Shown: in pieces, positions 10,443 through 23,658 of the stretch | Layout: every line of letters begins with the position of its first letter | How positions within the stretch are numbered: the first letter of the stretch is position 1 | Source: Bacteroidales bacterium | GTDB taxonomy: Bacteria > Bacteroidota > Bacteroidia > Bacteroidales > UBA10428 | Reading direction: 5' to 3' | Assembly: GCA_016931575.1 (NCBI GenBank) | Contig: JAFGEO010000071.1 | Coordinates: 1-64,000 of the forward strand | Length of the DNA: 64,000 nucleotides | Notes under the pieces: generated by a model | Database searches by the model: none | What the model saw: the letters and a program-made list of their open reading frames with translations, nothing else | Told to the model about the DNA's origin: nothing | Translations under genes and position numbers: made by a program

Positions 10443-11129
10443 CTATTCAGTGCTTTTTTCAATATTACCACCAAGCCTGGTTTGAAAGTCAGTAACTTCC
10501 GGCTCACACCGATAAAGGATGTGTGCATTTGCACTAGCGCTGGCTTTGAGCTGTTTATCTGCACATATTTTGGCAATCCCCAATAGTTTTGCACTGATAT
10601 CAATGTTCTCACTCTGTAAATTCAGAGCATCATAGATGGCTTTTGAATTAACTGAAACAAGCTGCGAGTCAGCATATCCTTTAACATCCAGTACGCTGCC
10701 CTCCATGAGCTGTGCATCCAGCTTTTTCACATCGATATCCAGGTAGGCCTTGCTTCCCATTTGCTGGTAGATAACCAGGCTATCGGTTTTCAGGATACCC
10801 GTGTTGTAAATATCTGCCTTGCCCGTAAGTTTAATGCTACTGAGCGAAGGAATCGATAGAATGGCCTTTACTTCCCCGTCGCAGTTGATGTTAGTCCTGA
10901 TCCTGAGTGTCAGCACTCCTTCTTCAATGGAGTGGGAGAAACAATCGATTTCCACATCGTCTGATTTTATCTCCAGACCGGGTTCATCCTGAATGCGTAT
11001 CTCCAGTTTAATATTACCGGTAACATCGATGGCATGCACATTTTCTAATCCGGATAGATTCTCCTGTCCTTTTGCCCCGAAAGGGATGCACAGTATCGCA
11101 ATCAGTGTAAGTATGGCAGTTTTTCTCAT
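10443..11129 (-). CDS. Secreted GIN-domain protein (DUF2807)
   Basis: A 228-residue protein with a signal peptide (basic MRK, hydrophobic core, likely cleavage after GAKG near residue 21). The rest is the repetitive beta structure of DUF2807, the putative auto-transporter adhesin head GIN domain, recognised by the ENVHAIDVTGNIKLEI opening and regular short strands such as SSIKLTGKADI and DAQLMEGSVLDVKGYAD. Family members are periplasmic or surface proteins of unknown role, very common in Bacteroidota. No membrane anchor or T9SS tail is visible. It is probably monocistronic. Confidence 0.82.
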   Translation of the reverse strand: MRKTAILTLIAILCIPFGAKGQENLSGLENVHAIDVTGNIKLEIRIQDEPGLEIKSDDVEIDCFSHSIEEGVLTLRIRTNINCDGEVKAILSIPSLSSIKLTGKADIYNTGILKTDSLVIYQQMGSKAYLDIDVKKLDAQLMEGSVLDVKGYADSQLVSVNSKAIYDALNLQSENIDISAKLLGIAKICADKQLKASASANAHILYRCEPEVTDFQTRLGGNIEKSTE

Positions 11130-11494
11130 AATCGTATCGTTTAGAATAAAACTAGTGAAGTAGCTAAGGTAGAAACAATGCTGAATATCCTGTAAAAATA
11201 AGGATCAATCCGAAAAGTTGGGAGGAAAGCGAGCTGTTCCGGTAAAAAAGTTATTCAATGACATGGGGACGTTGGCATGAGCTGGTTTGAGAGATGGAGA
11301 AAGTTTTGTCAATCGATAAGTTTAAACTCTCTCAACAATTCTAAACATTTTTTGTCTTAACCAAATGGTAAAAGGAGTCAATGAAACATCAAATTTCTAC
11401 AGAATATGCCAGATCAAAAAATAGAGACCTTCCCTGGCAGACCACAAAAAAAGGGCCTGTCAGGCCCTTAAAAGATAAAAACGGTGAGGTATTG
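11130..11494. other. Non-coding stretch between two minus-strand genes
   Basis: It holds the upstream region of the DUF2807 gene and, at its right end, the terminator of the small LExWM-repeat gene. A 64-codon plus-strand frame from 11381 runs through that terminator and into the antisense of the next gene, so I do not count it as a gene. I see no tRNA, repeat or clear promoter here. Confidence 0.6.
11446..11469 (-). terminator. Rho-independent terminator of the LExWM-repeat gene
   Basis: Read on the minus strand, AAGGGCC and GGCCCTT form a GC-rich stem of 7 bp (extendable inward), directly followed by a run of T. It lies 26 bases after the stop of the gene ending at 11495 and points the same way. 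Confidence 0.85.
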
Positions 11495-11815
11495 CTAGTT
11501 GGTTTTCCAACCGGATGGGTCATTCATCCAGCTCTCGAGCTCTACTTCCTGTTCTGTAAGTTGGTTGCTCCATGATTTGTCAGTTGGCTGTATCATCCAG
11601 CTTTCAAGGACCACTTCCGATTCTTCTGTTTCGGTTTCCATGGTTTTCCCGGCTGCCGACCACGTTGCGGGTTCAAACATCCAGTTTTCTAAAACATACT
11701 CTATGGAAGAGGCATCACTTGATAAGGCAGATGTCGCTTTCTTGTGTCCCGGGTCTGATGCAAAAGTCAGCAGGGGAATTGTCAGGAGCAGGAATACTAG
11801 AGTTCTTGTTTTCAT
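11495..11815 (-). CDS. Small secreted protein with three LE[NS]WM repeats
   Basis: A 106-residue protein with a classical signal peptide (MKTRTLVFLLLTIPLLTFA, cleavage after residue 19). The mature part, about 87 residues, is acidic and contains three copies of one short motif: VLENWMFEPATW (41-52), VLESWMIQPTDKSW (69-82) and ELESWMNDPSGW (92-103). The copies are separated by charged, Thr/Glu-rich linkers. I do not recognise an enzymatic or binding domain. The regular motif-linker design suggests either a repeated ligand-binding peptide or a precursor cut into similar peptides; this is inference. The start at 11815 gives the best signal peptide, while the frame extends 11 codons upstream. It is followed by a terminator and divergent from gldA. 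Confidence 0.7.
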   Translation of the reverse strand: MKTRTLVFLLLTIPLLTFASDPGHKKATSALSSDASSIEYVLENWMFEPATWSAAGKTMETETEESEVVLESWMIQPTDKSWSNQLTEQEVELESWMNDPSGWKTN

Positions 11816-12080
11816 CGTTTTAATCTTTTTTGTTGAAATTGTTTTCATAGTTCTGGTTCGAATAAGCTATTACATTATCTGTGCCAAATCTTATAAAAAA
11901 CTAGTAAACAGAGATATAGGCTTAATAATTTAGCTTGCTGTTTAAATTAGTTGATCGATAAGCGAACAGAGCTTGTTCGATATCGCACAGATTATAATTT
12001 CTGAACGGATAAAACTAAAATTAGTTACATTCGTATAGCTATATTTAACATGACTTTAATCACGTTTACCACTAGCAACT

Positions 12081-12998
12081 ATGTCTATTGAAATACAATC
12101 ACTTACCAGGTCTTTCGGTGAACAAAAAGCCGTAAATGAACTATCCTTTTCTGTTAATAAAGGGGAGGTGGTTGGTTTTCTGGGTCCTAATGGTTCAGGC
12201 AAGTCAACCACTATGCGTTGTGTTTGTGGGATCCTTCCTTATGATCAAGGCGTGATTACCGTGGAAGGGTTGGATGTTCAGAAGAATCCGCTGGATATCA
12301 AAAGGATGATCGGATACCTGCCGGAGCACAACCCGCTTCCCCTTGATATGTACATAAAGGAATACCTAAAGTATGTGGATGGATTTTACAGCAAGGCACA
12401 GGGGCGGAACGAAAGGGTGGAGCAGATCATTGAGCACACCGGGCTAAAGCTTGAGCAACATAAACGCATTGGCCAGCTTTCAAAAGGATACAGGCAACGG
12501 GTAGGACTTGCTCAGGCAATGATTCATGATCCGGAGGTCCTGATACTGGATGAACCAACTACCGGACTGGACCCAAACCAGATTATCGAAATCCGGAACC
12601 TGATATCCGGAATTGCCAAAAACAAGACGGTTATCCTTTCCACACACATTCTGCAGGAAGTGGAAGCGATCTGTGACCGGGTAGTTGTACTGAATAAAGG
12701 GATCCTTGTTGCTGACGGGACGACGGCAGATCTTACCTGGAATTCGAAAAGAAGAGAACAATCCGTCTTTGTTGAGTTCAGGGATGAGGTAGATCCCGGA
12801 TTATTGGAGAAGATGGGACAGATCGGTAAAATCCGGACCGTAAACCAGCATTCGTATGTTCTCGAAGGTACAGCAGAAAAAGACCTGAGAGAAAGTCTTT
12901 TTCTTTTTGCCATCAAACACAAACTGGTGATTTTGGGACTGCAGAAGAAATCTGACAACCTGGAGGAAGCTTTTCGCGCATTGACACAGCAAAACTAA
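12081..12998 (+). CDS. gldA: GldA-type ABC transporter ATP-binding protein
   Basis: A 305-residue ATPase subunit of an ABC transporter, closest to gliding-motility GldA. Walker A is GPNGSGKST (35-43), the signature is LSKGYRQ (133-139), Walker B is VLILDEP (153-159) and the switch His is in LSTHILQEVE. A C-terminal domain of about 90 residues follows. In gliding Bacteroidota GldA works with the GldF and GldG membrane proteins, but neither is nearby, so the partners must lie elsewhere. A weak promoter-like TACATTCG occurs at 12026-12033. The name follows sequence resemblance, and a general drug- or lipid-export role cannot be excluded. Confidence 0.8.
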   Translation: MSIEIQSLTRSFGEQKAVNELSFSVNKGEVVGFLGPNGSGKSTTMRCVCGILPYDQGVITVEGLDVQKNPLDIKRMIGYLPEHNPLPLDMYIKEYLKYVDGFYSKAQGRNERVEQIIEHTGLKLEQHKRIGQLSKGYRQRVGLAQAMIHDPEVLILDEPTTGLDPNQIIEIRNLISGIAKNKTVILSTHILQEVEAICDRVVVLNKGILVADGTTADLTWNSKRREQSVFVEFRDEVDPGLLEKMGQIGKIRTVNQHSYVLEGTAEKDLRESLFLFAIKHKLVILGLQKKSDNLEEAFRALTQQN

Positions 12999-22200: not shown

Positions 22201-23658
22201 ATGCTGAAACAAAACTTACAACAGAAACTCCTGCAAAAGCTTTCTCCACAGCAGATACAACTTATCAAGCTGCTGGAAATTCCTACTATGCAGCTGGAGC
22301 AGCGGATCAAGGCCGAACTGGAGGAAAATCCCGTGCTGGAGGAAGGGCGGGATGAGGATGATTTTGAGATATCCGAACTGCAGGAGGATCGGGAAAGTGA
22401 GAAAGACAAGGATAATGAGGAGTTTTCGATTGAAGATTACCTGAATGATGAGGATATACCTTCATACAGACTGAATGCCAGCAATTATTCAAAAGATGAT
22501 AAACGGGAAGAAATCCCTTTCTCTACCGGAACAAGCTTTCATGAATTTCTGGAAGCACAATTGGGCCTGCGCAAGCTTGGGGAAGTAGAACATGCACTGG
22601 CAGAGTATCTGATCGGGAATATCGATGAGGATGGTTATCTGCGGAGAGAGTTAAGCGCAGTTGTAGATGACCTTGCTTTTTCTCTGAATGTTTCGACCAC
22701 CGAGGACCAACTTCTGGAGATTCTCCGGGTAATACAGGATTTTGACCCGGTGGGGGTAGGGGCCCGTGACCTCCGTGAATGTCTGCTTCTGCAAATAAGA
22801 AGTAAAAACCTGGATCTTCCGGAAATAGCGCTTTCCGAAAAAATCATCCGACACCATTTTGAAGAATTTACCCGTAAGCACTATGATAAAATCCAGAACC
22901 GGTTGGGGGTAAGTGAGGAAGAACTTAAGCATGCCATGGAGGAAATCCTCAGGCTGAACCCAAAACCGGGCAGCTCTTTCAGTGACCCACAGAATAAAAC
23001 CAGTTATGCTATTATCCCTGATTTTATGCTCGATAATGACGACGGGGAACTTTCCGTATCACTCAACTCAAGGAATACTCCGGAACTCAGGGTGAGCAGG
23101 ACCTATTCTGAGTTGCTTCATAGCTATGCCAGCAGCAAGGATAAGCCTTCCAGCGAACAGAAGGAAGCCATCACTTTTGTTAAACAAAAGCTGGACTCGG
23201 CCAAATGGTTTATTGATGCAATCAAACAAAGACAGAATACACTATTACTGACGATGAATGCCATCATAGAATATCAGCAACGTTACTTTCAGGAAGGCGA
23301 TGAGACCATGTTGAGACCAATGATCCTTAAAGATATCGCTGATAAGACAGGTCTGGATATTTCTACAATCTCCAGGGTGGCAAACAGTAAATATATACAG
23401 ACGCATTTCGGAATTTTCCCCCTGAAATATTTCTTCTCAGAAGGACTGAGCACAGAAAACGGGGAAGAAGTTTCAAGTCGGGAAATAAAATCGATTCTGC
23501 AGGAATGCATCAGTAAGGAGGAGAAACGCAGACCTCTTACCGATGATAAGCTTGCTGCAATACTTCAGGAAAAAGGCTATCACATTGCCCGACGGACAGT
23601 AGCAAAATACCGGGAACAACTAAACCTGCCGGTCGCCCGTCTGAGAAAGGAATTGTAA
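22201..23658 (+). CDS. rpoN: RNA polymerase sigma-54 factor
   Basis: The alternative sigma factor that recognises -24/-12 promoters and needs an AAA+ enhancer-binding activator. The 485-residue protein has the Gln/Leu-rich activator-contact region at the N-terminus (LSPQQIQLIKLLEIPTMQLE), an acidic linker (about 45-90), a core-binding domain with DFDPVGVGARDLRECL, and the helix-turn-helix region. The RpoN box starts at residue 463 (ARRTVAKYRE), with the ending LNLPVARLRKEL. No enhancer-binding protein gene is in the window, and I found no convincing -24/-12 promoter upstream of any gene here. Confidence 0.95.
   Translation: MLKQNLQQKLLQKLSPQQIQLIKLLEIPTMQLEQRIKAELEENPVLEEGRDEDDFEISELQEDRESEKDKDNEEFSIEDYLNDEDIPSYRLNASNYSKDDKREEIPFSTGTSFHEFLEAQLGLRKLGEVEHALAEYLIGNIDEDGYLRRELSAVVDDLAFSLNVSTTEDQLLEILRVIQDFDPVGVGARDLRECLLLQIRSKNLDLPEIALSEKIIRHHFEEFTRKHYDKIQNRLGVSEEELKHAMEEILRLNPKPGSSFSDPQNKTSYAIIPDFMLDNDDGELSVSLNSRNTPELRVSRTYSELLHSYASSKDKPSSEQKEAITFVKQKLDSAKWFIDAIKQRQNTLLLTMNAIIEYQQRYFQEGDETMLRPMILKDIADKTGLDISTISRVANSKYIQTHFGIFPLKYFFSEGLSTENGEEVSSREIKSILQECISKEEKRRPLTDDKLAAILQEKGYHIARRTVAKYREQLNLPVARLRKEL

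Follow-up and report, generated by a model that had tools for sequence, protein, structure and literature searches.

Bce-type modules of Firmicutes, which serve in peptide detoxification, combine an intramembrane kinase with an FtsX-like ABC transporter. For Bacteroidia, the accessible part of a 2025 computational study reports that FtsX-like "antimicrobial peptide transport" permeases are under sigma54 control (PMC12316311), such that this mode of control is already known and is not presented as new here; the accessible part of a 2011 paper (PMC3162934) contains no mention of "Bacteroid". A third point of reference is phage-shock-type (PSP) envelope stress, for which an arrangement of PadR and PspC genes (HAAS-PadR/PspC/ToastRack) is described in the accessible part of PMC11237479. 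A literature search, which missed most subscription journals, returned no paper on the proteins that concern us here, whose tandem tryptophan-methionine units led us to call them WM-repeat proteins.

The gene from which this work starts lies in a 64-kb stretch of a Bacteroidales genome, referred to hereafter as the window (Table 1). The earlier note had described three LE[NS]WM..P..W motifs in a 106-residue secreted-like protein, a description confirmed by translation and by shuffling: three E-x-W-M units arose in none of 200,000 shuffles of the mature part, and the window contains a single set of three spaced TGGATG units, and none of 100 shuffled windows has one. The signal peptide was judged from sequence alone, and an alternative in-frame ATG at 11848, 33 nt upstream, would extend the protein to 117 residues. 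Both features previously reported for the flanks also stand, namely a terminator of the gene's own (one terminator-like hairpin, against a mean of 0.5 in shuffles of the region) and divergence from a GldA-like ATPase gene (12081-12998), which matches GldA_ABC_ATP at E 8.4e-119 with 396.5 bits, just missing the curated cut-off of 402.6. This gldA-side position recurs in two genomes of the same genus (L029, L032). We discarded the idea of a link to the head-GIN (DUF2807) gene at 10443-11129, since at both of these loci the neighboring ORF looks different in its N-terminal sequence. No PadR- or PspC-type gene was found beside the window gene in the ORF list or by Pfam search of both neighbors. 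That the protein belongs to no known family is borne out by the database searches: NCBIfam gave no match at E ≤ 1, Pfam gave only a chance-level match to ATG13 (E 0.069) and none above a curated cut-off, and eight relatives were likewise without a Pfam match above the curated cut-off.

Table 1. Features of the window gene and its upstream and downstream regions (positions in the window)
Feature	Position	Strand	Remarks
WM-repeat protein gene	11495..11815	-	106 aa; N-terminal signal-peptide-like segment; relatives found
Motif copy 1, VLENWMFEPATW	11660..11695	-	Short type, W = 6th residue after M
Motif copy 2, VLESWMIQPTDKSW	11570..11611	-	Long type, W = 8th residue after M
Motif copy 3, ELESWMNDPSGW	11507..11542	-	Short type; near C-terminus, as in most of the family
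Intrinsic-terminator-like hairpin and T run	11451..11469	-	Hairpin scan
Sigma54-like box, TGGCACAGATAATG	11873..11886	-	GG of -24, TG of -12; next base T, not the canonical C
Palindrome, TGTGCGATATCGAACA	11974..11989	-	TGTNCG-N4-CGNACA, 0 mismatches; 103 bp before TGGCA box

Relatives exist in close genomes. With the window protein as query, matches were obtained in 10 of 60 genomes (own included); a search within its own genome returned one clear paralogue (C85) and weaker matches, and a profile built from 16 rows of two-repeat pieces (profile A1) recovered four family loci there: C103 (window), C85, and, each with only one E-x-W-M, C49 and C62. Profile searches matched 12 of 23 genomes in the window's taxonomic family, hereafter the home family (E ≤ 0.01), and 15 of 198 in its order (E ≤ 0.001), with the own genome included both times; phylum-wide, at a strict E ≤ 1e-5, the own genome alone was returned among 395. 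A DNA pattern of three spaced W-M units, which matched 55 of the 96 loci then in hand, gave at least 80 loci (L097-L176) when run over the genome collection. We kept 41 as members, the other 39 being duplicates of members or, by eye, chance or unrelated repeats; the remaining members are 44 locus ids kept by hand from another set of loci, several non-members being excluded by name. Membership as defined here comprises at least two E-x-W-M units, an acidic residue at -8 and an aromatic residue after the Met, all of which the window protein has. With identical sequences counted once, the curated set (drawn partly from the matches listed) holds 85 distinct proteins, window protein included, of two to eight copies each. 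Organism names, taken as given in the record labels, include Draconibacterium orientale, Mariniphaga anaerophila, Prolixibacter denitrificans, Mangrovibacterium marinum, Sunxiuqinia, Maribellus, and Carboxylicivirga; L100, also kept, is labeled Chitinophaga pinensis. WM-repeat proteins are a large undescribed family.

The family motif reads E-x2-[LIM]-x-[LIV]-E-x-W-M-x(5-7)-[WF] and lies in an acidic chain for which no global fold is predicted. The 302 repeats of the 85 proteins were selected by the looser pattern [EDN]-x-W-M, yet all 302 have E at -2; E or D occupies -8 in 287, an aromatic follows within 10 residues of the Met in 296, and the prevailing residues elsewhere are L/I/M at -5, L/I/V at -3, D/N at +3, and W/F at +7. 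Successive repeats lie a median of 26 residues apart. The tandem motifs with acidic spacers seen at the outset extend to the family, whose members are extremely acidic (per 100 aa, the median charge of the 85 is -13.4, compared with -1.2 in 93 control small secreted-like ORFs, with crude control filters and signal peptides crudely cut). The AlphaFold model of the window protein lacks a global fold (pLDDT 63.8, pTM 0.21), the blocks containing motifs 1, 2, and 3 scoring pLDDT 80, 71, and 84; an eight-copy relative was modeled at pLDDT 48 and pTM 0.17 with no clear gain at the motifs. Among the roles first suggested, that of a multivalent ligand fits best, in view of the missing global fold, the acidity and the higher confidence predicted locally around motifs 1 and 3 of the window protein, a gain that the eight-copy model does not show.

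The main clue, a shared upstream element, lay outside the earlier reader's view. This composite (type B) consists of the palindrome, mostly 103-105 bp before TGGCA[CT]-N6-TG. Counted as a palindrome with at most one mismatch plus TGGCA[CT], it is present in 33 of 82 usable upstream regions, window included (26 from the home family and 56 others, three under 120 nt having been dropped), versus 1 of 597 controls (Fisher p 1.9e-32); the controls are regions upstream of any ORF of at least 120 aa, some inside operons and part of them from other phyla. Members from the home family carry it in 17 of 26 cases, compared with 1 of 228 control genes from the genomes of that family (Fisher p 4.4e-19), and other members in 16 of 56. 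The spacing is 101-106 bp in 30 of the 33, and the outliers (73, 92, and 114 bp) lie about three, one, and one helical turns off ~104. The -24 box of the window gene is TGGCAC (11881-11886), and position 6 of TGGCA[CT] is a pyrimidine in all 33 composite members. At the -12 box, T is found in 30 of 33 and G, which played no part in selection, in 33 of 33; a C follows this G in only three, and since the canonical -12 TGC is therefore missing in 30 of 33, we name the composite box sigma54-like rather than sigma54. The palindrome at the window gene is the only such site (at most one mismatch) in the 64 kb. In the own genome, an exact palindrome precedes TGGCA at three of the four WM loci (window, C49, and C62, with spacings of 103, 104, and 93); taken alone, the palindrome is not rare and only slightly exceeds its reversed control there (five exact sites versus three), although three of the five precede WM genes.

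A second upstream arrangement (type A), GTAAC-N16/17-[AC]GTC, is found in 29 of 52 regions from outside the home family, in none of the 26 within it, and in 1 of 597 controls; its strict form, GTAAC-N16-CGTC, occurs in 19 regions from outside the home family, in none from within and in no control. The two types are almost exclusive (type A in 31 regions, type B in 33, both in one), such that thirty other members have type A without type B. Among cultured marine or sediment strains, Carboxylicivirga mesophila JCM 18290 and Prolixibacter denitrificans DSM 27267 carry WM genes of type B, and Draconibacterium orientale FH5T carries type A. Neither type was found in 20 of the 82 upstream regions of at least 120 nt, including that of the two-copy paralogue of the own genome (C85:7102; L024:7096-7470). 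Promoters of ECF sigma factors carry AAC at -35 and CGT at -10, which type A resembles in sequence, and we call it ECF-like; a literature search on this promoter sequence found nothing. The window gene scores low with an ECF-like promoter matrix. Two variant ECF readings, one of TGTAAC...CGTTCAG in the window and one of CGAAC-N16/17-CGTTCA (four sites in the own genome, none for the reversed control), were dropped because the palindrome/TGGCA composite explained the set. Long purine-rich leaders (with repeats like AAACAGAAAACAG) run from the ECF-like promoter to the start codon at L107, L132, L122, and L150 and are open in frame.

Most WM genes stand alone, with functionally mixed neighbors that vary by locus. 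Of the 41 named loci kept (among the matches listed), 13 have the WM gene immediately ahead of a PadR gene; a PspC-type protein is visible at 12 of these, and GTAAC-N16-CGT is present at all 13. The arrangement in these Prolixibacteraceae-type loci is a WM gene followed by PadR and PspC-LiaI-LiaF-TM-ToastRack genes, with DUF4252 in some; a Pfam check at L166 and L116 confirmed two PspC and two PadR proteins, with HAAS in one. No WM gene was found at the PspC operon of the own genome (C28) or at the PspC operons seen in the home family, and the WM proteins tested gave no match to a PSP domain. We considered whether small ORFs ahead of home-family PspC operons might be WM relatives and rejected this, the motif being absent from those inspected; at L219, L222, L223, L228, and L233, ORFs of ~80-105 aa with unrelated sequences and hydrophobic starts head such operons. 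Most PadR-linked operons and home-family PspC operons are preceded by a palindrome like GGTACTATGTATTGCATAGTACC, near a promoter of TTTG/TAxxTTTG type at L216, L222, L225, L231, L233, L101, L116, and L134; this palindrome is perhaps a PadR operator.

What else the composite precedes was read from an order-wide scan, which found it in 111 of 393 genomes, with the reversed-pattern control in 23 (by hand count). At 30 automatically chosen loci, 24 sites had a spacing of 100-105 bp where 96-116 was allowed. Over all 111 sites the figure is 101, a histogram that leans toward normal spacing because 79 of the loci were hand-picked from the scan with a preference for it. No ORF of at least 50 aa starts 10-200 nt after TGGCA at 17 of the 111 sites; the other 94 downstream ORFs were scanned with Pfam and gave HlyD in 12, MacB_PCD in 10, FtsX in 10, OEP/TolC in 6, the ABC ATPase domain (ABC_tran) in 2, and Peptidase_S46, Por_Secre_tail, and GH92 in 3 each. 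The three GH92 sites (L277-L279) lie inside a coding region and are presumably false. WM proteins follow 14 of the 111 sites. Genes for S46 peptidases and tricorn/DPP-like proteins come after the composite at L354, L366, L370, L350, and L352, so that the regulon seems to include envelope peptidases. DUF5916 genes follow it at L410 and L411, and a similar-looking gene lies beside the own-genome paralogue C85.

At five loci (L324, L325, L330, L331, and L332), the composite site lies between HlyD-led exporter genes and a divergent activator/kinase pair. Pfam identifies the L332 regulator as a response regulator that carries a sigma54-interaction domain and a Fis helix-turn-helix (HTH); those of L324 and L325 align with it, and those of L330 and L331 were assigned by sequence start. 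By hydropathy, the kinase has two N-terminal membrane segments with few residues between them. In the own genome, such a pair (C152) is divergent from ABC ATPase and TolC genes, and a palindrome with one mismatch lies 93 bp ahead of TGGCAT; neither HlyD nor an FtsX permease was seen beside this activator. The own-genome activator (L319:8054-9427) shares 69-72% identity with its counterparts at L324, L325, and L332, and its HTH is nearly the same as theirs. Sigma54 activators usually read GAFTGA; all four activators compared (C152, L324, L325, and L332) read GAFTDA. This GAFTDA and the absence of C from the -12 box of the putative promoters are two oddities, and they may belong together. The sigma54 gene itself (rpoN) lies in the window at 22201-23658, ~10 kb from the WM gene; Sigma54_DBD was found in 22 of 23 home-family genomes (in the own genome, within the window itself) and PF00158, the domain of enhancer-binding proteins, in 23 of 23.

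Other small secreted-like proteins were seen under the composite promoter. A second acidic tandem-motif family, with about three copies of EEEYIDDIPFDT, is represented at L300, L359, L360, L397, and L398 (the C-terminal part of the L397 protein weakly resembles TonB_C, at an E of 0.094 that falls below cut-off), and a literature search on this DDIPFDT-type motif found no relevant paper. Small acidic proteins with other repeats (VKYKPS, YKAPE, and LEENMxxAAG) were seen at L294, L412, L406, L298, and L346, and proteins with weak TonB_C matches, below cut-off, at L276, L292, L299, L349, and L356.

We tentatively read the WM protein as a secreted multivalent binder, an acidic and largely disordered string of short binding motifs made under envelope or antimicrobial-peptide stress, that is, as an envelope-stress effector, and hold this whole reading to be a little short of evenly balanced. 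Its parts differ in strength. WM genes and exporter genes very probably share a regulon. The WM gene is probably activated through RpoN, a step made less certain by the GAFTDA of the activators and the -12 C absent in 30 of 33. The regulon is also reasonably likely to have an envelope or antimicrobial-peptide theme: two separate circuits point to the envelope, in that a sister lineage wires the WM family to an ECF-like promoter and PspC genes. MacB-type transporters are, to our knowledge, not always antimicrobial-peptide pumps. On the proposed sequence of events, the conserved activator (C152 in the own genome) would, with its kinase, sense membrane perturbation, bind the palindrome ~104 bp upstream, and turn on the WM gene through RpoN; the WM protein would be cleaved by signal peptidase and either stay in the periplasm or leave the cell, and its negative charge and repeated Trp/Met-bearing motifs could bind and hold a cationic or amphipathic target. 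The bound target would most likely be the stress agent itself (the protein acting as decoy or sponge), and the co-regulated pump and peptidases would remove what had been captured. Such a decoy mechanism, an acidic Trp/Met array capturing cationic or amphipathic peptides, is in itself rather doubtful, with a specific docking role close behind.

The alternative that survives best would make the WM protein an adaptor or feedback ligand, in which each E-x-W-M...W docks on a particular protein of the envelope (the kinase, say, or a PspC/ToastRack protein or an outer-membrane assembly factor) and the array cross-links or tunes that machine. The strictness of the motif, with its Glu in 302 of 302 repeats and E/D at -8 in 287 of 302, points to a particular partner rather than to nonspecific binding by charge. 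Docking is also consistent with the higher local confidence that AlphaFold predicts around the first and third motifs of the window protein, with the 13 of 41 named loci directly before PadR (PspC) genes, and with an ordered M-to-W spacing in the home family, where the last repeat is short (6) in 24 of 26 and middle repeats are long (8) in 13 of 19. However, no one partner gene adjoins most members, the neighbors varying instead, and the PspC operons seen in the home family lack a WM gene; we consider this adaptor role unlikely.

Less probable again is an export substrate or, as also suggested at the outset, a precursor of secreted peptides; the protein would be cut, or exported whole, by the co-regulated MacAB-TolC-like pump and would act outside the cell as a signal, a bacteriocin-like peptide, or a surface peptide. 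Peptide precursors are often near-identical tandem copies, and some WM arrays (L010 and L385) are of this kind; this and the composite element common to WM and HlyD/MacB/TolC genes are compatible with such a role. Against it, the linkers vary, no conserved cleavage site was seen in the repeat profile, and most members end soon after the C-terminal repeat (the last W is a median of 11 residues from the stop), leaving the precursor role with little support. A structural or surface protein (adhesin, matrix, or amyloid-like) whose stress induction is incidental would account for the signal-peptide-like start and the repetitive build of two to eight copies, but a charge of about -13 per 100 aa and the lack of any strand in either low-confidence AlphaFold model (window protein and eight-copy relative) speak against an amyloid, and we regard this reading as very improbable. 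That the upstream elements are artefacts of chance or composition is hardly credible: the palindrome was indeed first noticed by eye in sequences later counted, but controls carry the composite in 1 of 597 cases, and independent support comes from the invariant -12 G, from the spacing of 100-105 in 24 of the 30 automatically chosen sites (96-116 allowed), and from a genome scan that led to coherent exporter genes.

Returning to the envelope-stress effector, a small protein that stood as an orphan now has a place in a large undescribed family, along with a candidate regulator, and, if the reading is true, acidic motif-array proteins would be a new type of effector in envelope-stress and antimicrobial-peptide responses. 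The DNA signature (palindrome ~104 bp before TGGCA[CT]-N6-TG) would then be usable for listing the regulon in Bacteroidales genomes and for finding further orphan secreted families through regulation, not sequence similarity. With more reserve, we raise a wider picture that is possible but on the unlikely side: Bacteroidales may possess a whole group of secreted tandem-motif proteins, acidic and disordered, whose motifs are interchangeable (WM, IDDIPFDT, KYKPS, YKAPE, and AAG). One conserved activator/kinase pair would wire them, via the sigma54-like element, to MacB-HlyD-TolC pumps and envelope peptidases, and in antimicrobial-peptide defence they would serve as swappable, target-specific capture arrays.

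Comparison with related and described systems places the WM family as follows. The other composite-driven families (EEEYIDDIPFDT, ELENIVKYKPS, EQASIMYKAPE, and LEENMxxAAG types) share with it a signal-peptide-like start, acidity, short repeats, and the same promoter, whereas their motif sequences are unrelated to WM. PSP systems are approached by the Prolixibacteraceae-type loci, in which WM genes precede PadR and PspC-LiaI-LiaF-ToastRack genes (DUF4252 in some); unlike PSP proteins, the WM proteins tested have no PSP domain, and the home-family PspC operons seen are without a WM gene. The composite matches sigma54 promoters in its TGGCA[CT] box, its -12 TG, the distant palindrome at near-constant distance, and the encoded RpoN and activators, and departs from them in lacking the -12 C in 30 of 33 and in activators that read GAFTDA. 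As in the sigma54-linked FtsX-like permeases of Bacteroidia, FtsX-like permease genes stand under the composite here; the secreted tandem-motif proteins and the palindrome are not mentioned in the accessible part of PMC12316311. With Bce-type modules, the present system has in common a kinase of two membrane segments and a very short loop that adjoins exporter genes, but it differs from them in its sigma54-activator-type regulator, its HlyD-TolC tripartite exporter, and its acidic tandem-motif secreted proteins.
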